NCBI RefSeq assembly: GCF_000003815.2
Contig: NC_049980.1
Span: 17,038,295 to 17,102,294 of the forward strand
Reading direction: 5' to 3'
Length of the DNA: 64,000 nt
From: Branchiostoma floridae
Lineage: Eukaryota > Chordata > Leptocardii > Amphioxiformes > Branchiostomatidae
Position numbers and translations under genes: made by a program. Position 1 is the first letter of the stretch. Every line of letters starts with the position of its first letter. Below, piece after piece: positions 11,901 to 63,101 of the stretch. The notes under the pieces were generated by a model that saw only the letters and a program-made list of their open reading frames with translations, did not search any database and had not been told where the DNA came from.

Positions 11901-13991
11901 CTTAATCAGGTTGAAATGTCATTGTAAAATAAGGTTCTTAATTACACTAACTTTAAACAAGTTTAACTTGGTCAGCATTCTGTCACCTTGCAGCAAGGAT
12001 TAGCAGAGTTCCTTAGACCCTGAGAAAGGTGACTGTCAGTTATCATGGTGTTGGCCAGGTGAAAGTTAGTTGTGTAATAAATACCATATTTTCAAAGAAG
12101 GTTCTTGTGTTGGGTCATGTTGCATTGCGTTCTGTTGTATTAAATTGTTTTGTGTAGTTTAGAGTTTTGTTGTTTTGTGTTGCATTCTGCTGCATTCTGC
12201 TGCATTCTGCTGCATTGTGTTGGGGACCACATAGAAATCCACAAGTCTCTGATGCAGACAAGACATACTGTAAATGCAGAAACTTTTGCGGTGGTTTAAT
12301 GTTCACGGTTTTCGCGGTGGCTGCTTCACTGTGAACTTAGAACCACTGTGAACATTTTTCCATGGCAGTAAGAGAATACAGTGCATGGTGCTACCGCGAA
12401 CTTAAACCCACTGCGAAAAGTCTTTTTTCCCGCTACCGCAAAATTAAATCCCCGCAAACTTAAATGCATTTACAGTTCATTCATGTAGACTATCCTCATG
12501 ACCTCACAACTCACCCATGTCATCCACAGTGGACAGCAGGTACATCTGCACCCCTACCAGGCTGACCTTCAGACTGGTGACCTCTACAGTCTCCTCCCAC
12601 ACAGCCAGGGTCACCTGACTTACAGCATCGAAGGCTGCCAGGCCGGTCGGCAGGCCAACAAAGATGTACCGTCCATCCACACTGTGGGCCATGCAGTGGG
12701 TCTTACCGTGCTCCTTAGTGGGAAATATCACATGTGGTTAGATGTCTTACCTATAGTTCCATCAGCAACTGATCATCATTAGCAAGTTTAAAAGATTCCA
12801 TGAGTTACTTTGGCACCTGGAAAATGAGTCACTTTGATATCTAGAGTCATATATAAATTTGCATTTGAAGAGTGTGGTGAGACGTATGTGGGAGAAACGG
12901 AAAGATCGCTAGGGGAACGGACTACCAAACACCAAAAGTCCCTAGATCGCCTGGACGGCAAATCCGCGATTAGCCAACACCACCTCCAATCACGTCACTT
13001 GGTCACTACCAAGCCCATCTCGGACAACATAGACATTATTGACTTAGAAGCACGCAATGCACATAGAAAGATTAAGGAGGCCATCCATATTCAACTAGAG
13101 GCTGCGAAGTTGAACCGGACTGAGGGTTGGGAGCTGCCCAAGTGCTACCTACCCCTTCTCCGCAAGGAGGCGGGGGGAGGGGGCAGATGATCCACGCAAG
13201 CCTGACCTAGTTTCGTGTTCTCTCGCGAGAACTGAGATTAGGTCATTCCCCTGACGACGATGTACTGATAGACATCGAAAATTTGGGAGGTATGTAATGT
13301 ACCTTTTCAAAAACAGTCATTGATTGATGAAAATTGCTGATCAGGACAGTCTGGCACCAGGTCCAGGAGGGTCAACCCTAACCCTGGACTATGAACCATA
13401 TCATACCTGCATCTGGACAGGACACTCGTACAGCGGAGGTCGAACCCTGCTGCCGTCCTGCATGCGTGCCTCCTCACGCTCACTGACGATGTCCCACACA
13501 TCCTCCAGTAGTTGGAACAGCACCTTGTGAGGCAGGAGAGGGGTGTGTGTGAGTGTGAGTGTTTATCTATATGTTCGACTTTTTGATGGGCTTTGGGAAC
13601 AGGGTGTTTTTTTTTCCCGCTCAGCAAATCAGTTCTATTGCAACTGGCTTTTTGTGGTTGCACCTTGAATGTAGACTTGTTCTCTTTGAAATGTGCCAAA
13701 TGCTGTTGCCAGCCTTTACGACTTGATATGGAGCCAATACCACTGCTTTTCCACTTTTTCACATTGGTCGGATTTCAGTGAGAACGCCCTTGTACGGAAA
13801 AATTACCAACGCTCTGTACCATAAGCTATCAAATGAAAAACAAGTGAACCTTGTCTATCATGCGGAAGGGCTGCGGTAACGGGTCGTACAACTGCTCGGG
13901 GTCCGTCAGGAACTCTTCTTCATCACTGTCCCTGGAGCTGAGGGAGGGAGGGGGGATATCCAACCCGCCCTTCCGTATAAAAACCGGCATT
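5833..13991 (-). CDS. WDR93: WDR93/CFAP297-like axonemal WD-repeat protein, 15 exons
   Basis: The joined exons are 13850-13991, 13407-13523, 12515-12713, 11710-11774, 11317-11383, 10968-11080, 10369-10582, 9614-9791, 9230-9378, 7990-8121, 7407-7623, 7207-7267, 6785-6941, 6285-6438 and 5833-5998. Every junction is AG/GT and every phase agrees. The product is about 710 residues, close to the roughly 690 of vertebrate WDR93. Visible features are an acidic N-terminus followed by the block [14 protein letters not shown]-type strands such as [13 protein letters not shown] and [11 protein letters not shown], an Ala/Gln helix ([14 protein letters not shown]), and a basic helical C-terminus ([18 protein letters not shown]). 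WDR93 orthologues (FAP297 in algae) belong to the C1d projection of the ciliary central pair; that is family knowledge. The identification rests on the PLPQPFRMI block, the exon-by-exon resemblance and the length, recalled without a search. The apparent ATG is one base out of frame (see findings). Introns hold a minisatellite, a MITE and a Penelope fragment. Confidence 0.75.
6285..6438 (-). CDS. WDR93: WDR93-like exon 14
   Basis: Reads [20 protein letters not shown] then [20 protein letters not shown] and [10 protein letters not shown]. The acceptor is GTGCCAG and the donor is GTAATG. It ends with two bases of a split arginine codon. Confidence 0.78.
6785..6941 (-). CDS. WDR93: WDR93-like exon 13
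   Basis: Reads [20 protein letters not shown] then [20 protein letters not shown] and [12 protein letters not shown]. The strands [11 protein letters not shown] and GADGQMFYA resemble propeller blades. The acceptor is CTGTAG and the donor is GTGACT. Confidence 0.8.
7207..7267 (-). CDS. WDR93: WDR93-like exon 12
   Basis: A short exon reading [20 protein letters not shown]. Two overlapping in-phase donors are possible, GTGGTG at 7209 or GTGAGG at 7206, differing by one valine. I chose the GTGAGG site. Confidence 0.65.
7407..7623 (-). CDS. WDR93: WDR93-like exon 11
   Basis: Reads [20 protein letters not shown] through a Pro-rich loop ([15 protein letters not shown]) to [20 protein letters not shown] and EPVTILD. 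The acceptor is CTACAG and the donor is GTGGGG. The [11 protein letters not shown] strand fits a propeller blade. Confidence 0.8.
7990..8121 (-). CDS. WDR93: WDR93-like exon 10 (WD blade)
   Basis: Reads [20 protein letters not shown] then [20 protein letters not shown] and DKYL. The run ending LTVWDKY is the clearest WD dipeptide-type ending in this gene. The acceptor is TTTGTAG and the donor is GTCAGT. Confidence 0.82.
   Translation of the reverse strand, partial: TLSTSQTWYGPTPAPSRPVLSAQTHPWWLWDWWTAPSQFGTNI
9230..9378 (-). CDS. WDR93: WDR93-like exon 9
   Basis: Reads [20 protein letters not shown] then [20 protein letters not shown] and LYSLLKTGK. The [16 protein letters not shown] segment is a WD-type blade. 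The acceptor is TCCCACAG and the donor is GTAAAG. Confidence 0.8.
9614..9791 (-). CDS. WDR93: WDR93-like exon 8
   Basis: Reads [20 protein letters not shown], then [20 protein letters not shown] and [18 protein letters not shown], with the final codon split. The acceptor is AACACAG and the donor is GTGAGC. Confidence 0.78.
10019..10380. repeat. 31-bp minisatellite repeating the exon 7 splice donor
   Basis: About eleven to twelve units of roughly 31 bp with the plus-strand core GTACACACCTGTCAGTTCAG. The array begins at the 3' edge of WDR93-like exon 7. Read on the gene's strand, each unit carries CTGACAG|GTGTGTAC, the same sequence as the real exon-intron junction. Two units near 10100-10180 are degenerate. 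Each spacer also carries an in-frame TAA, so use of a downstream copy would truncate the protein. Confidence 0.9.
10369..10582 (-). CDS. WDR93: WDR93-like exon 7 (disordered, Glu/Gly/Pro-rich)
   Basis: Reads [20 protein letters not shown] through a low-complexity linker to [20 protein letters not shown]. The acceptor is CTTGCAG. The donor GACAG|GTGTGTAC coincides with the last unit of the 31-bp minisatellite that fills the start of the next intron. Confidence 0.78.
10968..11080 (-). CDS. WDR93: WDR93-like exon 6 (Ala/Gln helix)
   Basis: Reads [20 protein letters not shown] and then an amphipathic helix [18 protein letters not shown]. The acceptor is TTTTCCAG and the donor is GTAATC. It ends on a whole codon. 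Confidence 0.78.
11317..11383 (-). CDS. WDR93: WDR93-like exon 5
   Basis: A 67-bp exon reading [20 protein letters not shown] then LE. The acceptor is CCTGTAG and the donor is GTGAGT. It ends in phase 1, matching exon 6. Confidence 0.75.
11710..11774 (-). CDS. WDR93: WDR93-like exon 4
   Basis: A 65-bp exon reading [20 protein letters not shown] then EQ. The acceptor is CTCACAG and the donor is GTTTGT. It completes the split glycine codon of exon 3. Confidence 0.75.
12180..12221. repeat. 10-bp tandem repeat
   Basis: About four copies of TGCATTCTGC in an intron, next to the MITE. Confidence 0.85.
12267..12476. mobile_element. 210-bp MITE with ACTGTAAATGCA ends
   Basis: It starts ACTGTAAATGCAGAAAC and ends TTAAATGCATTTACAGT, so the ends are inverted copies. 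The interior is built from repeated GCGGT/ACCGC and CACTGTGAAC motifs and has no coding capacity. Sequences closely similar to its left and right halves flank the large nest at 52041 and 62187. No clear target-site duplication is visible here. Confidence 0.75.
12515..12713 (-). CDS. WDR93: WDR93-like exon 3 (first beta-propeller strands)
   Basis: Reads [20 protein letters not shown] through LLSTVDDM and ends in phase 1 at a GTGAGT donor. The pattern [20 protein letters not shown] is typical of a WD blade. A MITE lies just downstream in the following intron. Confidence 0.8.
12834..13190 (+). mobile_element. Penelope-like retroelement 3' fragment (GIY-YIG endonuclease)
   Basis: An open frame of about 118 residues reads [20 protein letters not shown], then a conserved helix ([13 protein letters not shown]), [32 protein letters not shown], and [20 protein letters not shown]. 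This is the C-terminal GIY-YIG nuclease domain of Penelope-like elements, with YVG in place of YIG and the typical KIKEAIHI...[10 protein letters not shown] tail. The reverse transcriptase part is absent, so it is a 5'-truncated relic. It lies on the plus strand, antisense to WDR93, in the intron between exons 3 and 2. It stops at TGA 13188-13190. Confidence 0.85.
13241..13303 (+). ncRNA. Possible degenerate hammerhead ribozyme of the Penelope-like element
   Basis: CTGACGA at 13251 matches the hammerhead core CUGANGA. It is followed by a stem-loop (GATGT, loop, ACATC), then GAAA, a weak stem III (ATTT/AGGT) and GTA at a position suited to cleavage. An outer stem could form between GGTCATT and AATGTACC. 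Penelope-like elements are known to carry hammerheads just downstream of the endonuclease frame. Several pairs are G-T or mismatched, so activity is doubtful. Confidence 0.4.
13407..13523 (-). CDS. WDR93: WDR93-like exon 2
   Basis: Contains 39 whole codons, beginning [20 protein letters not shown] and ending CPVQMQ. The acceptor is CTCACAAG and the donor is GTATGA. The helical [13 protein letters not shown] segment directly follows the PFRMIDK block, as in the WDR93 family. Confidence 0.75.
13850..13991 (-). CDS. WDR93: WDR93-like exon 1 (N-terminus)
   Basis: Encodes the acidic stretch [20 protein letters not shown] and then PFRMIDK, ending at a GTTCAC donor. The ATG at 13991-13989 would start MPVF, but a six-A run (13979-13984) puts it one base out of frame with the conserved reading. 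In the conserved frame there is no ATG before an upstream TAA near 14060. The start is therefore uncertain. Confidence 0.65.
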
Positions 13992-41973: not shown

Positions 41974-42073
41974 NNNNNNNNNNNNNNNNNNNNNNNNNNN
42001 NNNNNNNNNNNNNNNNNNNNNNNNNNNNNNNNNNNNNNNNNNNNNNNNNNNNNNNNNNNNNNNNNNNNNNNNN
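41974..42073. other. Assembly gap
   Basis: Exactly 100 N, the conventional placeholder for a gap of unknown size. Confidence 0.98.
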
Positions 42074-46047: not shown

Positions 46048-49000
46048 CTGGGGGAAGACAAAGAGAATAGACAAAAATGTCAAAGACATTCACCTACTTG
46101 ACCTAGGCCACAACAAGTAAATTTTATGGATGACATCTTCTGCAGACTGAAAAAATTATGAAATATGATGAAAAAAACAAGATGGCTACAAAAAACAAGA
46201 AGGCTAAATTAAAAATAAAAAAAACACCATATAAAACGTTGTGACAAGAATTGAAGTGATACAAGGGGCGTTCAATAAGTAATAACTCTGACCCACTTTC
46301 AGTTGTCTGATCTAGATGAAATTTTGCATGTGTAATGATTCATATCTCTATAGTTTATGCTGCAAAAAAGAGCTCTGAACTATTTGTGGTTTCTGATTTA
46401 ATGGTGTTTGAACTGAGTTAGGTGTGAAATGGACCAGGTGTGAAATGGAGCCAGTTGAGTGTCGCGCAGTGATCCGGTTTTTGTATTTGAAAGGACGCAC
46501 ACCAAAGGAGACTTTTGATGAAATGAAAGAAACTTATGGTGATGATGCCCCATCATATGACCTTGTAAAACGCTGGCATCCTGAATTCAAACATGGCCGG
46601 AAGTCTGTGGAAACAGCTCCCAGACCTGGTCGTTCCTCTTCTGCCATTGATGAGGCATCTGTTGGAAGACCAACCTGGGGTGTCCTACAAAAACGGTGTC
46701 CAGAGCTGCATCAAACGATGGGAGAAATGCATAACTCTGGGTGGTTCCTATGAAGACTAATAACTGTGCCAAGTTTCATTAATCTCCTGCTATGGAAAAT
46801 GAGTCAGAGTTATTACTTATTGAACGCCCCTCGTAAAACAATTGGTAGCACAGACAACAAATTATCCTATCTTCAAGAAGTGAACTATAGTGTAGTATAA
46901 GTGACACTAGTGTGGTAGACTTGTAACACTTACCAAGTTGGCAACTAGTCTGATGACTTCTATAGTGGTGCCACTCTTGCAACTATCCGACTAGTTTCAC
47001 TTCTACAACTACAGTCATTGATACCTTGCTAGTATCACTTCTACAAGGACAATAATTAGGCTACAACACAATATATTTTCTAATTTTTGTACTCATCATG
47101 TTGACCATTTACGAAGAAGAAAACATTTTTCTTTCTGCGGCAGAAGTGCGGCAGCAGAAGTTATGTTGACGACAAATATCCGGAAACACACACTCACAGA
47201 CACACCCAAAACAATATCTCCATTTTTCATAGATAACATTATACCTCCATGAAAGCACCAACTTACCAGAGATGAAAGAGAATGTCTAAATGCAAACATA
47301 AGGACTCTTTATTGATAATCTACTAAATGCAAGTCATATGTTCAGCCCAAAAAAGATCAAGCCATGCCATAGGAAGGCAGTTGAATTACCCTGGGTAGGA
47401 AATGTCTAATTTACCTTGCACAAAGACCCAATGTAACGCATGCGCACTTAAAGAGAAGACAGCTTGAACTGCAGACAAAAACATAACAAATTACCCAATT
47501 GCAAATGACATTTAGTTAATCGAAGCTCCTGTTTCTGGAGAGTGTTATGTTATTTTGCTGAAAGATGTACCCTGACAACACTCATGTCAAACATAGTTCC
47601 GTCCATAGGCTGGCCTGGTGACGTCAGCGACCAATGGAAAAATGTTGGACACGGAATTAAACGTAGATAACCTGATATCCCGCCTTTTGGAAGGTAATTT
47701 TGTCCATTTTTACCTTTACTGGTCCAAGTACCTCGAACCATTATGTAAACGTTTTGTGATTCATTTTAGCACAGGGTTCAAATCCCGTAGAGCACTGTTT
47801 GGACAGGACAGAGACCAGCCTCCAGAGACACACGGCAGCACATTTAACCCTCATGAGATGGGGAACAACAGACAATATTAACCAGACAGTAATTGACGGC
47901 GAGTGAAGTAAATCACACACGATGTGTTAAGTTCAGTTCTCACCCTGTTGTAACTACATCAATTCAATCATCAATTCAAATGTTGATGATGTCATCGAAT
48001 ACACCTTTCCCTTTTCTATTAGCATACACAATGTTCTTACCTTGTGATGATCTGCCATCATGAAGTAGATAGCATCTGATATAACATCTTCCTCCACCAG
48101 CACCCAGTCATCCACACACTGTTGGCAGATGGGGAAGGTAATCTAAAAAATACCACAAAATGATACATAAATCTGCAGTAAAACTGAAATATCAAAGTAG
48201 CTAACAGTTCCAGATATACAACTTGAAACACTGATTAGGACTGCAACACAAAGGACAAATTATGTAATGTGACCACAATGTCCATAGTCAGTACAGACAC
48301 TGGTATGAATATGGCTCTGTACAGATCATTACAAACTTAAACAAAGTAAACGCTATTAAATTATCAATAACAAATTACTGTGATATGTCAAGTTAGCATC
48401 ATCAATGCATATGTCTATGATTTCATACAAGTCAAGACAGTAAAATCAAGAAGCATAACAGATATTAGTATCAAAATGAATCAAACAATCATCTTTGAAG
48501 AGAAATAGCAGATCTGGAACTCACAGATCCTTCCTCCACTCCCCCTGCTGTCCCATCAGACAGAGTGTCCAGACTGGGCAGGTCCAGGATGCGCCCTGCC
48601 TCCACAGACTTGGCCATGACTGCAGAATGGGCTGGCTGACAGCCGACAACCTGTATCACGAACATGTGCAATTCTAAAATATGTTTTAAAACAAGTTTGC
48701 TCAGTGCAAGGCTACATAGAGCACTTCAAGTACAAACATACTGTACAAACATCTTCCACCTTGTGGTGGAAATGACCTTGTGATTATAACTTGAAGGCTC
48801 TGACAGGCCTTACTGTTGTGTCATCTATTCCTCACTTGCTTCAAGTGAAAATGAGAACCTAGCTTCAATTGGGGATGTCTTCTTTAATAGAAGGGATGAA
48901 AAGCTGAAAGTCTGGTGCTTGAGAACAGCCACACCCCAAGCACAATAAAGAACCCAACACACTTATCCAAAAATGAGGAGGGGTCCATCACAGTGTGAGT

Positions 49001-52000
49001 GGCTTGGACCTCATAGTCTTGTTCTCTGGTAACACCTTGAAAAGGTGATAGTCACATGTTATGCCAATCCTTCCACAAAATTTGATAAATCTCAATGAAT
49101 AAATCAACTGAATATTTAATATCTATTCATTGTAACAGGCACATGATTTTTCAAAAGTGCTTACTATATAAGTGACAAATAATCATAGATGGGAACCTTC
49201 ACAGTGGGCTTTACTGCCTTGATATATGCAGCTATTCCAGCAATCAGACCTCCTCCCCCCACAGGGACAAACACAGCATCAACATCAGGGAGATCTTCCA
49301 CGATCTCTTTTCTGCATTAGGACAAAGTAGAAAAAATAACTAAATCCAGCACATAAATAGACTAGAATGGTGACATTTGCAAGCAAATATATAATGCTTA
49401 CCTTCACATGTTTAGTCTAACATTGACTACTGTTATGCATTATGATTAGGCAGACAACTTGCTGTAACATAATAGATAAAAATTGTGCTCTATCTGTCCA
49501 TTGTCTAATCACTGTAATTGCACTGAAGGCCACAGGGAAATATTTTTGCAGTGGTTTCAACTCCTTGACAGCCAGTTGGAAACTACACAGCGAGTCAGGT
49601 CCTCAAGACAGACATAGCAGTCGCTTTTGGCAGCGCAGTACTTTCTTGATCATTTATGTGTCACTTATTTTGCCATATCTACCCTCTGAATATGTAGTAC
49701 AATACATTGTACTTCACTACCATATTGTTGGCAGTCAAACCTGTCCCAGCATTTGACAGGACACTGGTCTGGACTGACCCATAGTCATTGAGATGTCATG
49801 GTGCACAGTACGCTGTAACATATACAGTATATGGTCAAACTGGGCAACTTCGCATTATTGCACATGCCGGATAATTCCAAGAAATATGCTGGCAAATTGG
49901 TTGTGCAATTAAACAGCTTCTACTGTACATCTATATCCTAGAAAGTTGACTGGCATACATACCCTACTGTCCCCTGTCCTGTCATGACCTCCATGTCATT
50001 GTATGGAGATATGAACGGAATCCCTTCTTCCTGTAATATACAGAAAATTAAATGTGACTTACTTGCAAGGACAGATATACATGTACATGCTATTTCTATA
50101 GAAAAGGCATTATACCATAACAATACACATTAGGGACAAGTTATCATGACAAGCAATGACTTATTGTGTATAAATGGAGTATAATTACCAATATTGATAG
50201 TATCAGCTCCTTCTATATTCATCTTAGGCCACACCAATTTAATTTCTTGGTTCACGGATTCGCTCGCTCCTCCTTTTTGGGAAAAGAAATAAAAATAAAA
50301 ATTACCACTCAGCAAATTTTCACCATTAATGAAACTATTCACCAACTTTCTGGTGTAGCAAATTGGCCTTTATATTATAAACTCGTTAAAGTGTGGGTAC
50401 AGGTGCTGTTATTGTACAATAATAGTGTTTTTGTCCTTTTTTCAAGCTGAAAACTTTTTTTCTTTATGTTTTGGATTAGCCGTTACCTTTACCCCAACCA
50501 TTTTACAATTTTTATTTTTATCTTTATTTCGCCCTCTAGCTCCATATTTCTTATGAAAAAATCCGTGAACCAAGAAATTAAATTGGTGTGGCCTTATGAA
50601 CCCTTCAAATAACTGTCAAATGGTTAAAAACAAAATTGTGCTTTTATAAAGACGTCACACAATTAAATTATACGTATATAAAAACACCTTATGGTGACCT
50701 ACCTGTGCTGTCTGCCTTGCTTTGGTTTCAGCCTCCACAGCATCTGTCCCATGATGCCTCAGGATGGCCCCCTGCCTGACAAGGGCCAACTCTTTTGTCT
50801 TGGACACATTCTCACTCAGGTATATTGTTCCCGTTAGACCAACTGTCTTCATTGCTAATGTCTAAGAATAAAACATTTCTAAATGACTTGTCTGAAGTTT
50901 CATCTACAAACAAATGCAAAGACAATGTAATAATACAAAATGCAATGACATTCCTTCACTTGTGTTGACAGTGTACTACGTATACTATGAGGGGAACTAT
51001 CTCAGTAAGTGTAAACCAGCAGTGGTGGTACCAGGGTTGGCAGAAACGGCTGCCCGGTCGGTCGGCGGAAACCGCTGCTGGTCCGGAGGTTAGTTTTGGG
51101 GGTTTCGAGTATTGCATACAGCAGTGTAAGTGAAGTAAACAAAATGCCTACTTAAATATTCCATAACGGTTGTTAGATGTTGCTACATGTTCAAAGGAAG
51201 CTGGCCAAATTACTTATCTTTTGAAAAAAAAATTAATTTGACATTTCTTGGTAAGATTGTCCCATCCCCAGCTGCTACTTAGAACGTCCCCCCCCCCCAA
51301 AGAACAAGTAATAATAAAGAACAAGTAATAATAAAGTTTACTACTGTCCCCTATTAGAAGCGCCTCACACATATCCACGTGGCCACACACACTGCGTATT
51401 TTGGGGTCAACGACCTAACGTTAATATGCGCCGCATGGAATGCCGGAAACTTCCGATGAATCAAATCAATCCAACCTACAGTTTTCCATTTCAGAGTATA
51501 TGAATATAAAATTAGTGTTGGGATTACATTTTTGAAAAAAAAAATCAAGGCGCTAATCATGAGTGCCAGGTGTACAGTTCTCAAACAGGACCTTCGTTTC
51601 TGCAACCTCGCTCTACTCAAATACCAAATAGCATTAAGTTCTTACAGTGAGGACACGGCGCGGCTCATTATCGACCTTATTAGCGTTAATGAGCTGGCAG
51701 CACCGAAATCTGGTGTTCACCAAAAACAAGCACAAGTTCAAATTACGCCGTGTTTGCGTTTTCGAATTTCCGTAATGACGGTAATGTTTACGATATTAGT
51801 ACCACTGAGTTGTAGGGTCAGCCTACACGAGAAATGCACTTAAATACCTGCTGCGATAGCAAGCCATCTTGTTTACATTTGGTATACTCGAAACCCCCAA
51901 AACCAACCTCCGGACCGGGCAGTGGTTTCCGCCGACCAACCGGGCAGCTGTTTCCGCCAACCCGTGGTACCGATAGTAGGAGCATCTGGCAGCTCAATGA

Positions 52001-55000
52001 AAATTTGAAAAAGCTGTGTGGTTTTTGTTTTGTTTGTACTACTGTAAATGCAGAAACGTTTGTGGTGGGTTATGCTTGCAGTTTGTGTGTTGGCTGCTTT
52101 ACTTAAAACCACTGCAAACATCTTCCCATTACAGGACTGCAGAATATGAAGCTACGGGTTCGCTTAAAAGGCTGGGCTGTCTACCAGGCCAGGCTACCTG
52201 GCCTGTCTACCTGGCCTGGCTATCACGTCAGGCTACTCAGATCCCCCCATTCATAGCCCCATCATATGGCACTCAGCCAAAATAGCTGATTGACAGGCAT
52301 AGTAATTGCTGATCTCCAACCCTGCTAGTGCCAGTGACCCAAGGTTGCCCTGTCCACCACTGGCTGGGCCCTTTGGGAATGTGTCTGGGAGGCCTTGCTT
52401 GCAGCATGTCAGGAACACAAGTACCAGCACTGTGTTTGTGTATGTTTGTGGGTGTGTAAATGTGTGTGTGTGTGTGTGTGTAAGAATGGGCTTGCCAGCA
52501 ACAGAAATTTGTTTCTTTATTGAATATCTATCTTCTAGAACAGAAACTTACCGTGGCCGACTGGGACAAAATGATTCTAACACTTCCGAGCCTAATTCCA
52601 AACGTCACGAGGCAGATTCCAACACTTCCGAGCCTAATTCCAAACGTCACGAGGCAGATTCCAACACTTCCGAGCCCAGTTCCAAACAGCGCGGCACATT
52701 CCAACACTTCCGAGCCCAGTTCCAATCGTGCCGCGGCAGGGTTTTCCAAGCGTGCCGCGGCAGGGTTTTCAAAGCGTGCCGCGGCAGATTCCAACACTTC
52801 CGAGCCCAGTTCCAATCGTGCCGCGGCAGATTCCAACACTTGCGAGCCCAGTTCCAATCGTGCCGAGGCAGGGTTTTCCAAGCGTGCCGTGGCAGATTCC
52901 AACACTTCTGAGCCCAGTTCCAAACGTGACGAGGCAGGGTTTTGCAACCGTGCCGCGGCAGATTCCAACACTTTCGAGCCCAGCTGTGGATATGCATCTG
53001 GGTTTCCCATCCATTGAAACAGATCACAGATTGCAGCACAATGTAGAGTTAGTCTGACACACTTTCATATGGTGATCGTATTGTGATATTGATATTTGCT
53101 TTTTTGTATACTTGATTTGATAAACAAAGTCAGTTTTTTGTACTATGAGAAAGGGTAGAAACATCGCTAATTCAATTTTTTCATATGATTTGATTTCAAT
53201 GTTAAAATTCAAGTCCACTAAGATACAAAGGAAGTCATTGTTTTTGTAAGCTTGGTGTATTATAAGTACAAATAAAAATTTGCAGAGAGGAAAGAAGGGA
53301 CTCAGGAGCTATCGTATGGCTGGGTACCAGGCTACTTTTAAAAAAAATCTTGTCCTGAAATTTGTGTACGTTAAATTGATAGAAAAAAAGGGTGCATTTG
53401 TATTTCTAGAGAGCTATGTTCTTCTTAGCATGTAGTGATAGATTGTCTTAATGAAAGCTTTGCTGAAACTTATCAGTGGTGCATGTGGCATAGAGACATA
53501 GTAATGACAGACACTGCAGCTTAATTTAAGTCTGCTTCATTTATTTAAATTTTTGACTGCACTAAAGAAATATCCTTTATGTAACCTTATCACTAAAATG
53601 TAACCTGGCACAAAGCATGTGGACAGAGCATCAGAGCAATGATTACAATACTTGAAGTTGGACTGTCAGTTGCTGTTGTTGTACATACAGAAGTATAAAT
53701 TTCCATACTTTTTACCAATGCGTTTTGTGAACTATTTTGACACACACTAAAGGTTAACTTTGTGATGCCTTGCCTGAGTTGCCTCGTGTTTTTATTACCC
53801 ATCATCATCATCATCATTGGTCGACGTGATCGCATAGCCGAAGCTAGGTACTCATTTTCACCTGAGTAAAGTCAGGAAAGCCGTCTAAAGTGCCTTTCCC
53901 AAGGGCACAAGATCGGTAACACAGCACGGTCCCACTGCGCTACGCGGTCCCACTGAACCCATCATAATGTGCTAAATTACAGCGGACAAGTATAACAGTA
54001 TAATTTATTCTGTTTATAATTTCAAATATCCAAGGAGGTTTTATCGACAGGATTGATAAAAACACCTTGAATTAACACAACACACAGGCTTTTAGACTAG
54101 TGGGTACAAAAAGAAATCGCCCCGGTACCGGTACAACTTGCAACTTCTTAGTACTGACGACAAAATAAAGCCGAGCTGTGACCCTTGACCCATAAGATAA
54201 GGGACCATCCACTATACAGTGAGCAGTGGTCTCGGGAGCCCAAAGCCCAGTTCACCCTGCCTCGTCACGTTTGGAACTGGGCTCGGAAGTGTTGGAATCT
54301 GCCGCGGCACGGTTGGAAAACCCTGCCTCGTCACGTTTGGAACTGGGCTCGGAACTGTTGGAATCTGCCGCGGCACGCTTGGAAAACCCTGCCGCGGCAC
54401 GATTGGAACTGGGCTCGGAACTGTTGGAATCTGCCGCGGCACGCTTGGAAAACCCTGCCGCGGCACGATTGGAACTGGGCTCGCAAGTGTTGGAATCTGC
54501 CGCGGCACGCTTGGAAAACCCTGCCGCGGCACGATTGGAACTGGGCTCGGAAGTGTTGGAATCTGCCGCGCTGTTTGGAACTGGGCTCGGAAGTGTTGGA
54601 ATCTGCCTCGTGACGTTTGGAATTAGGCTCGGAAGTGTTAGAATCATTTTGTCCCAGTCGGCCACGGTAGAAACTATCTCAGCTTGTGCAACAAGAAGGG
54701 AGAGCATAAATCACTTGCTCACTGTAAAGCTAAACTTGTATTGACCAAGGGGGGTACTGTATAATTACATGTACCTCCTTGTTCTCTATGCTAGTATGCC
54801 ATGTTGACATATACAATCTTTAATATATAGTAGTCACATAGCATTTTTGAGGCTGTGGATTGTTATCCACTGTACAATTTTTGTGTCCAGGACAGAGCCC
54901 AATCCTCTCCTTCCACTGACAATAATCTCTCCAACCCCCTTGTACAAGTTGGAGTGGGGTCTAGGTCTAACACCCTAAAGCATTTACCAAACACAGTACT

Positions 55001-58000
55001 GGTACAGTACTTGAATGTGTTCCTGACAGCTGCAAGGAAGGCCTCCCAGACACTTTCCCGAAGGGTCCAGCCAGTGGACACTGGCAGGGTTGAAAATTAG
55101 CAATTACTATGCCTGTCACAGTAGTGGCAAAATATTGGACATTCTGAAACATGGGGCATTTCAAAAACTTACAAATAAGCTTACAAACCAACGGGTTATC
55201 GATTTAAATACATCATTGTGTTTTCATAACAGTCTGCCTTCAGTGGCTACGAGTAAAATGTACACCAGGGGTTCATTCATGTCTCCCTTGGGAATTTCAG
55301 TACAGAGGAATAACAGGTTGCCCGGTGTCGTTCATGGCCCGTTGCTTGCCCGCTATCTCGAGCTGCGATGTTTTCGTCAACCCTTACGTTACGGAAGCCT
55401 GTCCGCTATCTCGAGCTGCGATTTTTTAGTCAACCCTTACGTTACGGAAGCCTGTCCGCTATCTCGAGCTGCGATTTTTTTAGTCAACCCTTACGTTACG
55501 GAAGCCTGTCCGCTATCTCGAGCTGCGATGTTTTTCGTCAACCCTTACGTTACGGAAGCCTGTCCGCTATCTCGAGCTGCGATTTTTTAGTCAACCCTTA
55601 CGTTACGGAAGCCTGTCCGCTATCTCGAGCTGCGATTTTTTTGTCAACCCTTACGTTACGGAAGCCAGTTCAAGCCAGTTGCGTGTCCGCTATCTCGAGC
55701 TGCGATCTTTTCGTCAAACGTTACGGAAGTGGTCCTGTGTGGCTACCACGGCGTTCCAAGCTGTATAAAGTGACGTCCCCTCTGGCGTTATCACGTCTGC
55801 GTTGCACCCAGTTTGGTGCTGTTTCGTGTGTGAGGTTGACGATTTTGAAAATGACCACCAAAATCGACTTCATTTGTTAGATAGTGATTTTTGGCCGAGA
55901 AGGAGAACTAATATTCCGACATTCAAAATGTTGTGCAGAACTTTGGGAGCTTACATGTCCAATTTTCCTCTAAAGAACGCTGTGAAGGGGAAGAAACGTG
56001 AGGCCGGCGAGCCCACAGCTGGAAAAATCCGGCTGTTGGGAGAATTTAGCAGTCATCAGTACACAAGCTGTCACCGAGCTTCTGTTAAGCTTAAGCAAAG
56101 TTCTCGTAAAAATATTACATATAGCATAATCTAAAACATTTCGAAAAAATGTTTCTCTGGTAAACTGTGTAGTATGACCTTCGAGTTTACACTTGGAAGC
56201 ACATTTGCTCAACACGTGCCAAGTCAGGCGTGCATGATGCTCAGTGGGGCATTCTCCAAAGATTCTGGTAAACATGATCTAAAAGAATCACACCGGGCTG
56301 TGTCTCCTTAAAAGATTATAGGACTGGTATTAAACGCTCCATTTTTTCATATTTTCGTGTCTTATATAGACTGTTTCGATATTCGTTGGGGCCCTGAGTG
56401 TTTGGATTTTGCGTATAATTGACCACTTCCGTCAACGGGCCACACAGGACCACTTCCGTAACGTTTGACGAAAAGATCGCAGCTCGAGATAGCGGACACG
56501 TAACTGGCTTGAACTGGTTTCCGTAACGTAAGGGTTGACTAAAAAATCGCAGCTCGAGATAGCGGACAGGCTTCCGTAACGTAAGGGTTGACTAAAAAAT
56601 CGCAGCTCCGTAACGTAAGGGTTGATTAAAAATTCGCAGCTCGAGATAGCGGACAGGCTTCCGTAACGTAAGGGTTGACTAAAAAATCGCAGCTCGAGAT
56701 AGCGGACAGGCTTCCGTAACGTAAGGGTTGACTAAAAAATCGCAGCTCGAGATAGCGGACAGGCTTCTGTAACGTAAGGGTTGACTAAAAAATCGCAGCT
56801 CGAGATAGCGGACAGGCTTCCGTAACGTAAGGGTTGACAAAAAAATCGCAGCTAGATACAGCGGACAGGCTTCCGTAACGTAAGGGTTGACTAAAAAATC
56901 GCAGCTCGAGATAGCGGACAGGCTTCCGTAACGTAAGGGTTGACGAAAACATCGCAGCTCGAGATAGCGGACAGGCTTCCGTAACGTAAGGGTTGACGAA
57001 AAAATCGCAGCTCGTAACGTAAGGTGGAAAAACTTGGTTGCGTGTGTCTTGTGTCTTGTTAAGAAGGACCACCCGTGCTAATGCCGTTATGTAAGGTTTG
57101 CTTGAAACTCGGTGTCCCTCTTGTGTCAGGATGGCGTGTGTCCCTTGTTAGGCTGTGGAGGGTTTTGGACGAAGGGTTGATGGAAAATGTGTATACTGTC
57201 CCAGCCCAGACAACATGGAATTCAAGTACCTGATTGGCATGTAAGGTGGATTGTGTTTCAAAAATCGGTGAATTCCCTTGGGTGCAATATCATTCTACGT
57301 TTAAGGGACTGTACGATATTTATCAGGGGGGGAGGGTTGGTGCGTTAGGGGGGGAGGGCCATGTTAATTTTTTTTGAGGTGGGGGGAGGGCCATGTTAAT
57401 TTTTTTTTAGATAGGGGGAGGGCCATGTTAATTTTTTTGAAAGAATTGTTTATACTATTTTTTGCATTTTGCCGCCTTAGCGGCAAAATGCTCTGAGACC
57501 AGAATAGTCGCCGTTGTGATGGAGTGATGGAGTGATGTTGAGATGAACGGACCTGTTCAAAATCTGCACTGCATTTGTATACAACTTAAAAGCTCTGTCG
57601 TGAGTCATTGTCTGTGGTCCGTAATGGGGCCTGATATTTGATTAGATTAAATGAATGAAGTATGATATTCCTAAGATTGATGCAGCATATAATCAAATTA
57701 TTGCTCTTACATTTTAACGTTGTATTACCAATTCATAAAGATGAAATGTTTTCCAAATAAATCGTGTATATATATATAACAGTTACATATAGCCTATCCC
57801 AGATTCCTTTGCGACTTAGTTAATATTCATTAGTAGGGTTTCCAGGCGGTGGTGTTTTCCGTGCGTGTAGCGATTTTCGATTGATCGCCGTGTAAAATTG
57901 AGAAAGGCCTAGAACTTCAAACTTACCAGAATTGTAGTATATAGTATGGAGGCCCTGGCAATGTAAAAATTTTAAGCAGGGGATAAAAGATTGTTGAGAT

Positions 58001-61000
58001 ATGGCCTTCGGGAAAATGCCTCGCGAGACGGGAAAGTCACTTCCGCGTTTACGTGTTCGAGCGCTCTGCGGGCATGGCGTTGCGTCAGCCTGATTTGCAT
58101 CTCAGCCTTATTTGGAAGCAACCCATATATGGTAGGATTGGATAGACAAGAAAACAAGCTACAATTTGGTACGTGAACTTTTTTGTACCGCAATTTTAAG
58201 GTGGTTTACCTCCAGTTTGCAAATTTAGATGGCATTTTTCACCATTGATGTCTTATTTTTTTCAAAAAGTTGCATCCATGTGTGTAACAAGCGGTTTCTA
58301 AGCTTTAAAATGATGTATAACATGTGTAGGTTTGTTGTGAGTTAGCGATGTGAATGTTCAACATGTGCGACTCGCTCCGTGTGGTGTGCCGAGTCCGGGC
58401 CGTGAGTTACGGCCGTAGGACCCTGCATATAAATTTAGTTTATAGGCCAGGGAGGTTAAAGAAACCTCCTTGGTTAGGCGGGTCCATAATTATCAAAATA
58501 TTCTCGTTTCCATGTAAATAATTAGCGTATTGATATTCATTAAATTGTATACAGATAGCCTTTATAAGTGTAGATACATTGTATGTTCGGACACGTTTGT
58601 TTCAGGTTTGAGACGCAAAACTTTTGTTTTCTTTGTCACCAACTTCATGAAAGGAAACATCATTTGTAAATGTGTCCAACGTGAGCATATTTACGTTGAG
58701 ATGATCACTGAAGTTCAATTTTTACCTTGTAAGATCCAAAAAATCAATAACATAGCAAGTTGTGTTTGTTGTTGAATGTGATATCAAGGGCATAGAGGTT
58801 TTTGCTGATATTTCCAATGTTAAAAGTTTTCAGATTTGCAAGATGCTGCATTGGGAATAGCACCTGGAACATCATAGAAGAAATTGAGATGGCACAGAGG
58901 GAGAATTACAATGTATCAACCATTCAAAGCTGTGCAGCTTAGAAGAGGAGCTACCAAGTCTTTTCAAACATATGTTGTAATGTCAAAGAATTATCAATTG
59001 TTCAATAAACTTGAATAAACCAGTTACAAAGTCAGGTGGTCATGGTTCATAGGTAATATCTTTATATACTTTTGGTCATCAGATGTCGTAAAAGTAGTAT
59101 TTCCTGGTGAAATGTGATAGTTTTGATGGCAAATTTAGAATTAGCATGTGCCAAAACCCTTTAGTAGTAAGGTATGCTGATATTCAATGCTTATGGTCAG
59201 ACTGTGAAAGGGAATAACTCAAGAAGGGGTTGACGGATCATCATGATTATTGGTATGTAGATAGATTAAGTGATGCTTCGTGTAATTAAATATTAATTAT
59301 GCAAATCAGAAGCTAATTTGCATAATTGATGTGGAAATTATCTAAACTATTTCTATTCTGTTATATTAAACATGTGATATTTGTCACTGAGATAGAGAAG
59401 AATGTTGATAGGTAATTTTTTATGTGGACTTATATAAGTGACAGGTGCCGATGACCTTTGACCTTTTGAGATATGTTACAAATTAGTATTTTTGATTACA
59501 CATAATCTCGTAACCATGTCTCTAGAATGTCTGCAATAAACTGTGTTAAGAGAATCTACTACATATTTCCAATATCTGAAATATCTTAGTTATAGGATGA
59601 ACAGTTAATTGATTATCGCTCTTCAAAAAGGGGTCATCTGGAAATAATTGGCCACTTTTCCAGCTGTGCCATGCTGAAAAAACTTAATTTTCAGCAGGTT
59701 GACCTCACCTGTAGTGAAAGAAAAAGGCAAATAAACACCTTATCTTTACTTGATTGCTACAAAATACTACTTGGACTGTGCAGAAAAGAACTTTTGAGTG
59801 GCACAATGTTTTTACTTTCTTAATTATTGCTAATTAGAAATGCGATTTTCACACCTGGCGCCACACCTGCGGACACCGCCCAGCAACTTTAAAGGGCCAT
59901 ATCTCTGGAACGGAAGGTCCGATTTTTGTTCTGTATATTCATAAATCAGCACCCTCTATTAGGGAACACAAATGTTCTGATTCCCCTGGGTAGAAAACAA
60001 TTTCGACTGGAAACCCTATCATTAGTAGGATTTCCAGTGCGAAAATGGAAATTGCCACGATTTTTCATTGATCGCCCTGTATTATCGAAAAAGAACTGGA
60101 CCTTCTAACTTACCAGATTTGTAGTATGTACTATGGAGACCGTGACAATGTAAAATGTTAAAGCAGGGGTAAACGATTGCTGAGATATCATTTTCTGAAA
60201 AGTGCGCTATGATGCAGAGAAGTGACTTCCGGGTTCAGGGGTCACTACACAAATACCTCTGACGTCAGCCTGATTTGCAGAGCTACGGTCCGGGATCGAT
60301 TCCAGGGGAGGGTGATTTTAAATTGTTCTTGTTTCCTTTTTACATCCATTTAATATAAACAATAGTTTCAGCACATTCCAATAACTAGAAAAAAACCGTG
60401 TACACACGCAAACCTTGGCAAAATGCCAGCTTTTTTAAAGCACTTGTTTGTTTTGATATCTTGACATGGCCCTAAAACTGATAAAATAATCCTTCTGAAT
60501 AGCCTAAAATGCAAGAGCTTCCGGGGGGCTTCGCCCCCCTAGGCCCCCCAAGGTGGCGCTGCCCTGGACCAGCGTTCCCGCCAGGCATACGTCATTCCGA
60601 CTACGGACTTATTTTTTTCTGGAAAGACGCACTCGGCTCGGCTGAGTTTCCCCAAATATTTAAGTTACAAAAGCGGTGCACGGTAAATATGTGAAGAATC
60701 CAAAACTATACACTTTATTTCTTATCTAAAACATTTCTTTTGTTTCAAAAGGACAAAACTTGCGGCAGAAAAGAGGCCGCAATATTGTTGTCAAGCGTTG
60801 ATCGAGTCGGCTGTGCACTGGCATTGGCGTCCGTAGCACATGGCGCGGCACGCCCCCCTCCCCAGACGGACTGTCGATCGCAGCGCCCAGCACGTCTTTT
60901 CTGGCTACTCCTTCAAGGCTACACCGGCACTGATCACTGCCAAAGACACAGCAGATCGCCCTCCTTCGTATAATATATAACGTTCTTGGTCTACTCTACT

Positions 61001-62633
61001 CTATGTAAAAAGAAATCCAGCGGTGAGCCAAAGATTTCACGCCGAAAACGGGGTTACCTGAGGTCGCACAAAACAAACGCACGCTCGTGGAAAATTACGG
61101 CGCGGCCTTGTAAAACACGACCGATTCGATAAATGATAAATTTGAGTAAAATCATCGGGTAAAATAGAAAAACACAAGGTGTGATGCCGCCGTTATTCTA
61201 TAATCCTCTGGAAAAACTACTAGCATTTGATGCGGGAGGGCGCAACATCGATCGCACGAGGTAAAGCTCTTTATTCAATGCCGGAAAAAATTGGCAGGAT
61301 TTTTCCATGGGCTGACGAACTCACTGGCTAGAGCCCTGTTTGGAAGCATCAAAAACCCAAAATTTTCATATAGATATGACTGGACAAATAATACCCGGGC
61401 CAGATCACGGACTGCTGATTCCCCGAGCTTATAGTTATAACGTATTTTTTGGGAGAGGGCGGACGTCGATTACTGAAAAACGGGAGTAAAAAAGGCAACC
61501 GGCATCCAATCTCAAGGGCATAATTTTCCTCTCAAATTGCAGGAAATTCTGTTTTAGAGGGTTTGAAAATCCAAATTTTCCCGGGGGAGCATGCCCCCGG
61601 ACCCCTGCCCCGACGCTGTGAAAAAATCCTGGCGANNNNNNNNNNNNNNNNNNNNNNNNNNNNNNNNNNNNNNNNNNNNNNNNNNNNNNNNNNNNNNNNN
61701 NNNNNNNNNNNNNNNNNNNNNNNNNNNNNNNNNNNTGGATATCTGGGTGGAGGGCCATGTTGATTTTTTTTAGGTGGAGGGGGAGGGTCAACGTTAATTT
61801 TTTTTGAGATGAGGGGGAGGGTCATCAAAAAATTTTTTGATCAGACTTCCAATGCACCAGCCCTCCCCCCCCGATAAATATCGTACGGTCCCTTAGGTCT
61901 TCTGTTAGGTTTGGAAATGCCCCATGTTTCACAATGTCCAATTTCTTGCCATGTATAGCCTGTCAATCAGCTATTTTGGCTGAGTGCCACATGATGAGGC
62001 TATGAATGGGGGGATCTGAATAGCCTGACGTGATAGCCAGGTCAGGTAGACAGGCCAGGTAGCCTGGCCTGGTAGACAGCCCAGCCTTTTAAGCGAACCC
62101 TGAAGCTACTGCAAACTCAAAACCACTCCATTTTCACATTACCGCAAAATAAAATCTGCGCATACACAACTTAAATGTATTAACAGTACTTCATGACAAA
62201 GAGTGCACACATACACAAGCCAAAGCATGGTTTCCTGAAGAAGCTGTAGTCACGTGGATACCAGGCTGTTCATTGCTCAGAACTAGGCACTTGTTGAAGG
62301 CTCCTCTGACTTTAAATGACCCAGTCCTCTGTTCACTCTCTGAAAGCGAAAACGTTTTAATTTACAGTAACTTGTATTGCTGAAATTATGAAGCCATATT
62401 CCATCGACTTGATATTCCTAAATACAATGTTTTTAAAAAACAGAGGATATAGGTTACCACGCGAATGAAGGTGAACTAGCATTAACGTTACCCATCTTGA
62501 TGAAAACATTTCCCTCATTTTTCTCGCTTAGTCCATGTGAGAACTCCAGGGGAGTGCGCCGCACGTACGGGGCTATCCTGTCCGCTGCTGCTTCTATACG
62601 AGCCTGCAGGTTCACCAGGTTTATTTCAACCAT
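45901..62633 (-). CDS. PLP-dependent threonine/serine ammonia-lyase (serine racemase fold), eight exons
   Basis: The joined exons are 62492-62633, 62215-62339, 50703-50861, 49963-50030, 49197-49311, 48525-48650, 48041-48142 and 45901-46047. They total 328 codons in one frame and give 327 residues, similar to serine racemase (about 340). Fold-type II PLP features are present: Schiff-base lysine K57 in [10 protein letters not shown], the asparagine loop SSGNH (81-85), the phosphate loop GGGG (183-186), and S308 in SCGAN, which would contact the pyridine nitrogen. The family removes ammonia from L-threonine or L-serine to give 2-oxo acids, in the cytosol; some members racemise serine. The serine racemase metal ligands (E, A, D after strand VYAAE) align to Q208, S212 and V214 here, so a dehydratase without that site is more likely. 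Intron 2 carries the 10-kb transposon nest. Confidence 0.88.
46262..46833 (+). mobile_element. Internally deleted mariner element, 572 bp
   Basis: Terminal inverted repeats of about 29 bp (AGGGGCGTTCAATAAGTAAT, then AACTCTGAC) are flanked by a TA duplication at 46260-46261 and 46834-46835. From ATG 46445 the frame reads [36 protein letters not shown] and [14 protein letters not shown], the paired DNA-binding N-terminus of mariner transposase. After about 46690, in another frame, [20 protein letters not shown] then ED and a stop is the transposase C-terminus. The catalytic core is gone. The element lies antisense in the last intron of the ammonia-lyase gene. Confidence 0.9.
46445..46760 (+). 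pseudogene. Mariner transposase remnant (N-terminus joined to C-terminus)
   Basis: About 80 N-terminal residues and about 22 C-terminal residues remain, in different frames. The D,D34D catalytic region is deleted, so it cannot act as a transposase. The N-terminal helix-turn-helix could still bind mariner ends if it were expressed. Confidence 0.85.
48041..48142 (-). CDS. Ammonia-lyase exon 7
   Basis: Reads [20 protein letters not shown] then [14 protein letters not shown], the ITF...DDWVLV...EEDVI strand-helix unit of the family. The acceptor is TTTTTTAG and the donor is GTAAGA. Confidence 0.9.
48525..48650 (-). CDS. Ammonia-lyase exon 6
   Basis: Reads [20 protein letters not shown] then [20 protein letters not shown] and [15 protein letters not shown] is the conserved dehydratase motif. 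The position of the serine racemase metal glutamate is a glutamine here. The acceptor is TGATACAG and the donor is GTGAGT. Confidence 0.9.
48836..49025 (+). mobile_element. SINE fragment (3' part)
   Basis: TTCAAGTGAAAATGAGAACC, TAGCTTCAATTGGGGATGTC, CAATAAAGAACCCAACACAC and CACAGTGTGAGTG correspond in order to the SINE at 31858, here with a single copy of the segment that is expanded there. Confidence 0.65.
49197..49311 (-). CDS. Ammonia-lyase exon 5 (PLP phosphate loop)
   Basis: Reads [20 protein letters not shown] then [18 protein letters not shown]. It holds the tetraglycine phosphate-binding loop. The acceptor is AATGCAG. The donor AAG|GTTCCC is weak; it is chosen because phase and sequence then join exon 6 exactly. 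Confidence 0.85.
49963..50030 (-). CDS. Ammonia-lyase exon 4
   Basis: Reads [20 protein letters not shown] then TV. ISPYND...GQGTVG is a strongly conserved family motif. The acceptor is ATTACAG and the donor is GTATGT. Confidence 0.9.
50703..50861 (-). CDS. Ammonia-lyase exon 3
   Basis: Reads [20 protein letters not shown] then [20 protein letters not shown] and [13 protein letters not shown]. This is the small-domain Rossmann-like segment of the family ([16 protein letters not shown]). The acceptor is ATTCTTAG and the donor is GTAGGT. Confidence 0.9.
51033..51963. mobile_element. Non-autonomous DNA element with about 80-bp inverted ends
   Basis: The left end GGGTTGGCAGAAACGGCTGC continues for about 80 bases and is mirrored by the right end ending GTTTCCGCCAACCC. 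GTGGTACC stands on both sides (51025-51032 and 51964-51971), an apparent 8-bp target duplication as in hAT-type elements. The 770-bp interior has no recognisable transposase. It lies in intron 2 of the ammonia-lyase gene. Confidence 0.8.
51290..51300. repeat. Poly-C tract and 17-bp duplication
   Basis: A run of ten C is followed by two tandem copies of AAAGAACAAGTAATAAT. Confidence 0.7.
52452..52482. repeat. TG microsatellite
   Basis: About ten TG units inside foldback element 1. Confidence 0.9.
52549..52990. repeat. Left tandem-repeat arm of foldback element 1
   Basis: Modules contain GATTCCAACACTTCCGAGCC, CAGTTCCAATCGTGCCGCGG and GGGTTTTCCAAGCGTGCCGC. Module lengths of 42 and 24 bp are multiples of three, which keeps several frames open and explains the long spurious open frames here. 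Confidence 0.9.
53815..53960 (-). mobile_element. tRNA-derived SINE, inverted
   Basis: On the minus strand a box A-like TAGCGCAGTGG is followed by TGTGCCCTTGGGAAAGGCAC and AAAATGAGTACCTAGCTTCG. It is the copy that best preserves the 5' tRNA-like part of the family, and it lies in the loop of foldback element 1. Confidence 0.7.
54245..54670. repeat. Right tandem-repeat arm of foldback element 1
   Basis: The inverted counterpart of the array at 52549-52990, made of the same modules in a slightly different number and order. Both arms end at the shared boundary CCGTGGCCGACTGGGACAAA or its complement. Confidence 0.9.
55361..57020. mobile_element. Foldback-type element 2 with 53-bp repeat arms
   Basis: The left arm (55361-55743) has about seven copies of a 53-bp unit containing CGCTATCTCGAGCTGCGATT, TAGTCAACCCTTACGTTACG and GAAGCCTGTC. 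The right arm (56440-57020) has about ten to eleven inverted copies. The inner ends of both arms share a variant unit (CCAGTTCAAGCCAGTT, then TTCGTCAAACGTTACGGAAG), showing true inverted ancestry. The 0.7-kb loop has no recognisable gene. Confidence 0.85.
57464..57491. repeat. Perfect 12-bp hairpin
   Basis: GCATTTTGCCGC, a four-base loop CTTA, then GCGGCAAAATGC. The stem is perfect. Confidence 0.9.
57830..58110 (+). repeat. Direct duplication, copy 1
   Basis: ATTAGTAGGGTTTCCAG, GATTGATCGCC, AACTTACCAGAATTGTAGTA and GTCAGCCTGATTTGCA occur here in order, and again in the same order at 60013-60285. Confidence 0.75.
60013..60285 (+). repeat. Direct duplication, copy 2
   Basis: ATTAGTAGGATTTCCAG, CATTGATCGCC, AACTTACCAGATTTGTAGTA and GTCAGCCTGATTTGCA parallel copy 1 across about 270 bp, at an estimated three quarters identity. 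The copies share orientation and are 2.2 kb apart. Confidence 0.75.
60519..60548. repeat. GC-rich hairpin
   Basis: CTTCCGGGGGGCTTCGCCCC forms GGGGGG/CCCCCC around a CTTCG-type loop. A similar CCGGGGGAGCATGCCCCCGG lies at 61580, just before the N gap. Such structures may have stalled sequencing. Confidence 0.75.
61636..61735. other. Assembly gap
   Basis: Exactly 100 N, inside the 4.6-kb inverted-end element in intron 2 of the ammonia-lyase gene. It does not remove coding sequence, since exons 1-8 are all found. Confidence 0.98.
62215..62339 (-). CDS. Ammonia-lyase exon 2 (catalytic lysine)
   Basis: Reads [20 protein letters not shown] then [20 protein letters not shown] and AC. It holds the PLP lysine (GSFK) and the SSGNH loop. 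The acceptor is GCTTTCAG and the donor is GTATGT. The end of the MITE-type sequence flanking the nest is only 27 bases past the donor. Confidence 0.88.
62492..62633 (-). CDS. Ammonia-lyase exon 1
   Basis: Reads [20 protein letters not shown] then [20 protein letters not shown] and GNVFIKM, ending in phase 1 before a GTAACG donor. [14 protein letters not shown] is the family's N-terminal substrate-domain motif. An in-frame ATG 13 codons upstream exists, but the shorter start fits the family length. Confidence 0.85.
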
Positions 62634-63101
62634 CACGTTATGCTGCGGATACTTTTGAAAGAAAGGATACACTCACATACAAATTATGTAACTTGCTCAA
62701 ACTAGGTCACTGGTTAGTTTTCCACATGTGCCATGTTGAACTTTAACCTGTTACCGCCCACTTGACGAGTCCACTTTAACTTGTGGGGGTCAAGGGGAGG
62801 GTGTGATGTGATATCGTTATCTGTTAAAATCTATGAAAAGGAAAGTAACATTTGGATATACTATAAATTCTTTGGGTATCTTTAAAAAAATATTTATTGT
62901 TTAAGTTTTTATCTTCGATAGGTATTCCAAAATGTATTTTCAGGTATCCCTCCAAATAGTTGACCAACCCAGTAGGGTCAATACGGGACATGAGAGCGTC
63001 ACATGAGGATTTCTGTGTGAGAAAGTTTTTATTTTCCCATTCAGATCCCACCTTGCCGGGTGATTGTGCGTTTTTTCCGAAGTGAAAATTCTCTACGTGG
63101 C

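Follow-up and report, generated by a model that had tools for sequence, protein, structure and literature searches.

How does one intron come to consist almost entirely of transposons, and in what order did they enter it? The locus lies in the window, by which we mean the whole 64,000-nucleotide stretch analysed (C2:17038295-17102294 of the 513,431,437-base Branchiostoma assembly that was searched for sister copies). The species is likely B. floridae; the SYT2 exon is 92% identical to a B. lanceolatum record. The host appears to be a minus-strand gene resembling PLP threonine dehydratase/serine racemase, with a predicted intron whose borders are given in Table 1. Its exon 62215-62361 has matches to threonine dehydratase (2gn0, at E 2e-6) and to serine racemase (5cvc, at E 4e-6), and because of these "ammonia-lyase", the name under which the initial annotation had placed a nest of transposons in an intron of this gene, is a fair label. 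When the elements described here are summed, transposons account for 11,075 of the 11,353 bp of the intron (98%).

The nest is made of five ordered levels and one side branch, and it is deeper than the initial annotation had it. The chain leads from a MITE through a Mutator-like element, foldback 2 and an inverted-end element (level 4) to a Helentron-like element (level 5); the sequence and uninterrupted sister copies together establish it, as for each junction of the nest an uninterrupted version is present elsewhere in the genome. Foldback 1, the side branch, is younger than the Mutator-like element and cannot be ordered relative to foldback 2, level 4 or level 5. The original proposal, that transposons of one intron can be ordered by which interrupts which, thus comes out stronger than it was made, with five levels in line; an ordering of all elements does not hold, foldback 1 and foldback 2 being the exception. 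The inverted pairs and the MITE halves on which that proposal was built are present in the window. The outer element, both foldbacks, the ends of the 4.6-kb element and its inner part each match a dispersed genome family (family end sequences GGGTTCGC, CAGTAGTGGC, TACCGTGGCC and AGGGACTGTACG), so the structures of the nest are not due to chance. A block that moves as a unit with constant contents, the outcome which the initial annotation had named as contrary to its reading, was not seen in the copies examined.

Table 1. Positions in the window of the host gene parts, the layers of the nest and neighbouring features.
Feature	Position	Strand	Size and description
Host intron (predicted)	50862-62214	minus	11,353 bp; donor GTATGT, acceptor ATTCTTAG; flanking frames in phase by eye
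Exon upstream of intron	62215-62361	minus	protein matches in text
Exon downstream of intron	50704-50861	minus	read by eye
Further neighbouring exon	62493-62637	minus	read by eye
Level 1, MITE (oldest)	halves 52040-52155 and 62101-62188		~220 bp; TA flanks; intact sister copy
Level 2, Mutator-like, non-autonomous	52156-62100		native ~1.03 kb = 52156-52548 + 54675-55118 + 61958-62100 (980 bp here)
Level 3a, foldback 1	52549-54668		2,120 bp; ends TACCGTGGCC...GGCCACGGTA; arms of 21/42/66-bp tandem repeats
Short high-copy repeat inside foldback 1	53835-53926		at least 17 places, 96-97%; query 852-943
Level 3b, foldback 2	55119-61957		native ~2.25 kb (2,247 bp own) = 55119-57302 + 61895-61957
Level 4, inverted-end element (AGGGACTGTACGATATTTATC)	57303-61892		native ~1.6 kb = 57303-57457 + 60450-61892; in foldback 2 at CTACGTTAGGTC; spans assembly gap
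Level 5, Helentron/HINE-like (youngest in chain)	57458-60449	plus	~2.99 kb; one end with T run and palindrome GCATTTTGCCGCCTTAGCGGCAAAATGC, opposite end with GGCAAAATGCC...CACTTGTTT
Assembly gap	61636-61735		exactly 100 N; inside level 4
Second assembly gap	41974-42073		exactly 100 N; elsewhere in window
Element separate from nest	51034-51963		ends GGGTTGGC; flanks GTGGTACCA/GTGGTACCG, 9 bp with one mismatch

An intact MITE sister at 12265-12486 aligns straight over the joined halves, which confirms that the MITE was split in two, and it carries a single TGGTGCTAC where the window has TGAAGCTAC on each side of the insert. In the window the MITE ends read TACTGTAAATGC.../...TTAACAGTA within TA flanks, and the right end of the sister reads ACAGTTC; these ends were compared with the TA target duplication and short inverted ends of a Tc1/mariner-type MITE, a candidate placement. 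Relatives of the sister were found near full length in the fetched loci L050 and L039 (83-85%) and partially, over 167 bp, in L093. Beyond these MITE relatives, the comparison of the nest layers with the flanks of the fetched loci gave nothing notable.

The element that entered the MITE is bounded by inverted ends at 52156-52298 and 61958-62100 (143 nt, 97% complementary) and by TGAAGCTAC, its 9-bp target duplication, at 52147-52155 and 62101-62109. With 52156-52289 as query, 752 candidates came up; 40 of them were scored, and 18 rows, one of them that of the window, were identical to the query across all 134 bases. Scored rows L001-L040, less L018 (the window itself) and with L002/L039 and L006/L040 counted as one place each, left 37 distinct copies. 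There are 27 that run end to end at 0.96-1.09 kb, with no break of more than 40 bp between aligned pieces; five carry a single extra insertion of 0.4-1.5 kb (L009, L013, L024, L032, L039), four are deleted or lack an end (L016, L030, L033, L034), and one contains a run of N and was left out of the insertion count (L007). In the sister copies 52156-52548 is joined to 54669-55118 and then to the right end. Hence the "9.9-kb element with 140-bp inverted ends" of the initial annotation keeps its ends and its 9-bp repeat and loses its size, the native length being that of the sister copies.

Both traits looked for in a Mutator-like element, a target duplication of 8-10 bp and long terminal inverted repeats, are present in level 2. 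Both ends are present in 32 rows, of which two represent the same place; in 19 of the rows (18 places) the target duplication was perfect at 9 bp. By eye, the letters agree in another 11 rows as well, displaced by one position, which is what a duplication of 10 bp would give; of the last two, L008 is displaced with a mismatch, and in L036 a mismatch falls within a run of A. Three side observations come from this set of copies. L006 (C10:20989174) and L007 (C10:20943159) are 46 kb apart and have left flank and target duplication in common, which looks like a local duplication. The insertion in L039 (555-2115) reads by eye like a reverse-transcriptase piece of a non-LTR retrotransposon. L024 has a different insertion at 225-1200, near the site of foldback 1, parts of which resemble level 4 (61518-61606) at about 79%.

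Foldback 1 is flanked by the 6-bp target duplication GAAACT (52543-52548 and 54669-54674). Its uninterrupted target, AGAACAGAAACT directly followed by ATCTCAGC, occurs in 33 of the 37 level-2 sister copies when up to 4 errors are allowed; the exceptions, in which it was not found, are L004, L013, L022 and L024. The element had initially been drawn at 52290-55122, and these borders are too wide, as 52290-52548 and 54669-55118 occur in uninterrupted level-2 copies and are native to level 2. Because the outer arms claimed for foldback 1 belong to the Mutator-like element, the left terminal repeat of the latter is not split by it, contrary to what had been proposed; the arm that is split is the right one, and it is split by foldback 2. 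The motif TGACAGGC at 52291-52298, considered as an end of foldback 1, was rejected, since it shows no target duplication by eye and sister copies carry the stretch natively. Three other copies of foldback 1 match at 98-99% over its inner 1270 bp, end to end (among 58 matches from 40 scored candidates). The copy on C3 has a 6-bp duplication, GTTAAG, the one on C10 has no matching duplication, and of the one on C11 only the left end is visible. The repeat of about 90 bp at 53835-53926, dispersed in the genome, may be a short retroelement fragment.

Foldback 2 has ends CAGTAGTGGCAA.../...TTGCCATGTATA and arms of 53-bp tandem repeats, long inverted arms of tandem repeats being present in both foldbacks. 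A search with its left end (query 55119-55336) gave 92 candidates, of which 40 were scored, and 42 matches. As 37 of these matches, counting that of the window, start at the first query base, the left end is fixed; a search with the inner 695 bp recovers the same family. Its target duplication is the 8-bp GCCTGTCA at 55111-55118 and 61958-61965. Perfect 8-bp duplications were also present at all ten other places with both ends in a single fetched locus (L059, L062, L063, L064, L065, L067, L069, L070, L071 and L074, where the flanks of L065 and L070 are identical). Target duplications of 8 bp are typical of the hAT or P superfamily. The duplication of foldback 2 would fit either of the two, and by itself does not decide between them. 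With regard to the pair just named, L065 (C2) and L070 (C3) have both the 8-bp duplication and the flank AGATCACAGT in common; this may reflect a segmental copy or two landings in the same repeat.

The uninterrupted target of foldback 2, GCAATTACTATGCCTGTCAATCAGC, lies in the right arm of level 2 and is found in 26 of the 37 sister copies (not found in 11), and from this we conclude that foldback 2 landed in the right inverted arm of the Mutator-like element. Among the copies that fail the site check for foldback 1 or for foldback 2 are some that lack sequence or have a different insertion. BLAST detected nothing of foldback 2 in the stretches fetched for the 37 other copies of the outer element, and of foldback 1 it detected just the dispersed repeat of about 90 bp, in L013 and L021; the stretches of six of these copies do not show both ends (L009, L013, L024, L030, L033, L034). 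The second foldback of the initial annotation was a true foldback with tandem-repeat arms, drawn at 55361-57020 instead of the borders in Table 1.

Level 4 has inverted ends at 57302-57346 and 61851-61895 (45 nt, 91%), as had been noticed; it does not follow foldback 2, as first described, but lies inside it and itself contains the 2.99-kb level 5. Its target stretch CTACGTTAGGTC is without an insert in all 13 distinct foldback-2 places where it was found (L059, L062-L072 and L074; L042 is the place of L063, L073 yielded no right end, and other left-end loci are too short). The family is large, with 1164 candidates, of which 40 were scored, and the nearest relative among those listed is 96% identical over 541 bases. 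The ends of level 4 are visible in L101-L106. The target flanks vary: the window has TA, or TTA with one extra T, the copy on C13 has TAGTT on both sides, and the copy on C14 has none matching.

At the top of the chain, the site of level 5 is uninterrupted in all four fetched level-4 copies, reading TTTATACTCTTTTTGTTTTGATATC or nearly so, with five extra bases in L102. No target duplication was seen at the borders of level 5. Its 15 fetched relatives begin at 57454-57459, and the 13 left flanks printed for the family are all different. Three of four right-end pieces terminate at CACTTGTTT with differing flanks; in the fourth (L094) this end was not found. The insertion site is T-rich, with Ts at the border, and palindromic subterminal inverted repeats can be read as GCATTTTGCCGC...GCGGCAAAATGC and GGCAAAATGCC. 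The T run, the palindromic ends and the lack of a target duplication are why level 5 fits the Helentron/HINE type; its 3' stem-loop is weak, by eye just a short palindrome of the AAGCACTT type. An inner element of 2.19 kb (57834-60018, with TCATTAG repeats) had also been considered as a separate insertion; all 15 fetched level-5 relatives align across 57834, and it is internal structure.

Most of the remainder of the intron is occupied by the separate element at 51034-51963, which is absent from the initial annotation. Its arms (51034-51105 and 51892-51963) are inverted over 72 nt at 78%, and by resemblance it might be Mutator-like. Just past the next exon there is a MITE-like stretch of about 370 bp (50226-50594) bounded by a perfect 35-nt inverted pair, and 46412-46753 encodes a Mos1-type HTH domain (Pfam HTH_48, E 9e-10), the remnant of a mariner-related gene.

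We read the course of events as follows. The MITE was inserted first, and a non-autonomous Mutator-like element of about 1.03 kb then entered it. Foldback 1 and foldback 2 each entered the Mutator-like element, in either order. The inverted-end element subsequently entered foldback 2, and the Helentron-like element the inverted-end element. Since none of the layers has a recognisable transposase gene, all of them would be mobilised in trans, and the enzyme behind each insertion step is likewise presumed. The whole nest is presumably spliced out with the intron, the donor site of which would lie about 26 bp from the end of the MITE.

How recent these events are may be judged from substitutions private to the window copy, which we counted in three layers (level 2, foldback 2 and level 5), against the best-matching copies only. 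There are 4 in 963 sites for level 2 (0.42%, 95% limits 0.11-1.06%), compared with 11 copies and holding for all 11 rows, 10 in 1249 for foldback 2 (0.80%, 0.38-1.47%) and 6 in 1858 for level 5 (0.32%, 0.12-0.70%). These values are upper bounds on the time since insertion, because a part of the changes may have been present already in the donor. With 0.8%, foldback 2 has a longer private branch than level 2, its host, with 0.4%; this runs counter to the order of insertion, but the limits overlap. In level 2 the right terminal repeat has 3 private changes in 143 sites and the left part 0 in 393, for which we have no explanation beyond chance.

PMC12500494 puts lancelet heterozygosity at 3.2-4.2%. 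As private divergences of 0.3-0.8% are below this range, we predict that some haplotypes may lack some of the layers; if rates are comparable, the nest may be younger than many haplotype splits and possibly polymorphic. The stronger claim, that levels 2-5 and foldback 1 all built up over a period shorter than the mean difference in age between two haplotypes of the lancelet, is one we hold tentatively, with the chances slightly against it. If it is true, living Branchiostoma populations should still have a series of alleles of this intron, beginning with the empty MITE and the MITE with the Mutator-like element, and one locus would hold a living stratigraphy of several active transposon families.

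We are highly confident that the nest records six separate transposition events. Against this reading speak the flanks of level 4, in which no clear target duplication is seen, its nearest listed relative at only 96%, the foldback-1 copy on C10 without a matching duplication, the private branch of foldback 2, the private changes in the right terminal repeat of level 2, the sister copies in which a foldback site was not found uninterrupted, and the 100-N gap in level 4. Some of these points bear on a different history with fewer events in the intron, in which foldback 2 jumped when it already carried levels 4 and 5. The order of interruption is silent on where an insertion took place, an older loaded donor would fit the private divergence of foldback 2 in excess of its host's, and the distance of level 4 from its nearest listed relative points the same way. 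Such a loaded donor has not come to light: level 4 is missing from all 13 other foldback-2 places in which its target stretch was found, and level 5 from all four fetched level-4 copies, although the copies examined are part of those in the genome. We consider this history unlikely. The original architecture, a 9.9-kb element with its left terminal repeat split by a foldback at 52290-55122, is almost certainly wrong. The outer inverted ends, at 52156 and 62100, do exist, and the stretches 52291-52455 and 54970-55118 are complementary at about 70%, hence the impression of foldback arms; the same arms occur in uninterrupted copies of about 1.03 kb that lack the rest, so the sister copies refute it.

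Besides the number of events, one may ask whether the intron attracted them. With about 98% of its length made of transposon, it could be taken for a preferred landing pad, and a tolerant landing pad is what the initial annotation saw in it. Among the 36 readable sister copies, a sample of best-matching and hence young level-2 copies, there are five insertions; by hand arithmetic, a Poisson process at this rate would put two or more direct hits into about 0.9% of copies, so that about 7 doubly hit ones are expected by chance among the 752 candidates. The nest is thus the expected tail of an ordinary process, for which a landing pad is not needed; we regard a preference for this intron as improbable, and the tolerance as unsupported. 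Still less credible is an artefact of assembly. Heterozygosity makes lancelet assemblies hard, and there is one 100-N gap in level 4. It touches none of the five junctions, and target duplications agree exactly over 9.9 kb in level 2 and over 6.8 kb in foldback 2.

Six separate insertions, the reading we prefer, yield an ordered and internally checked insertion sequence in which five transposon families of a lancelet take part; lancelets are chordates and an outgroup to the vertebrates. The locus is also an example of how a raw reading of the sequence alone misassigns nested borders, which sister copies correct.

The report on Tm1, a Mutator/foldback element of root-knot nematodes, describes target duplications of 8-10 bp, mostly 9, with no clear consensus (PMC3169594). 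Level 2 resembles it in its 8-10-bp duplications, long inverted ends and MITE-like copies, and nested insertion is reported for Tm1 as well; it differs from Mutator/MULE elements and Tm1 in that no transposase is linked to it here, and its terminal sequence, GGGTTCGC, is presumably its own. The foldbacks have the long, internally repetitive inverted arms described for Galileo and Tetris of Drosophila (PMC3573991, PMC4079207), a likeness by description and not by sequence; foldback 1 has a target duplication of 6 bp and foldback 2 one of 8 bp. Level 5 has in common with Helentrons and HINEs, as portrayed in PMC4067079, a variable T run at the border, T-rich insertion sites and palindromic subterminal inverted repeats. 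Its first palindrome is 28 bp long compared with 12-15 there, the distance of the second from the end is about 22 bp compared with 38-60 in the mite families, and the 3' stem-loop is weak here.

Among the papers listed in literature searches, no title dealt with transposon nests of lancelets in one set and the word foldback was absent from another, which is no proof of absence. Apart from the predicted allele series, the nest is ordinary genome biology, a clean example of an ordinary process and not of a new one. TinT stands for transpositions in transpositions. In its application to primate Alu elements, as outlined in PMC3014933, order is derived from nested insertions, as it is here; the difference is that we deal with a single locus, in which each junction has its uninterrupted sister copies.
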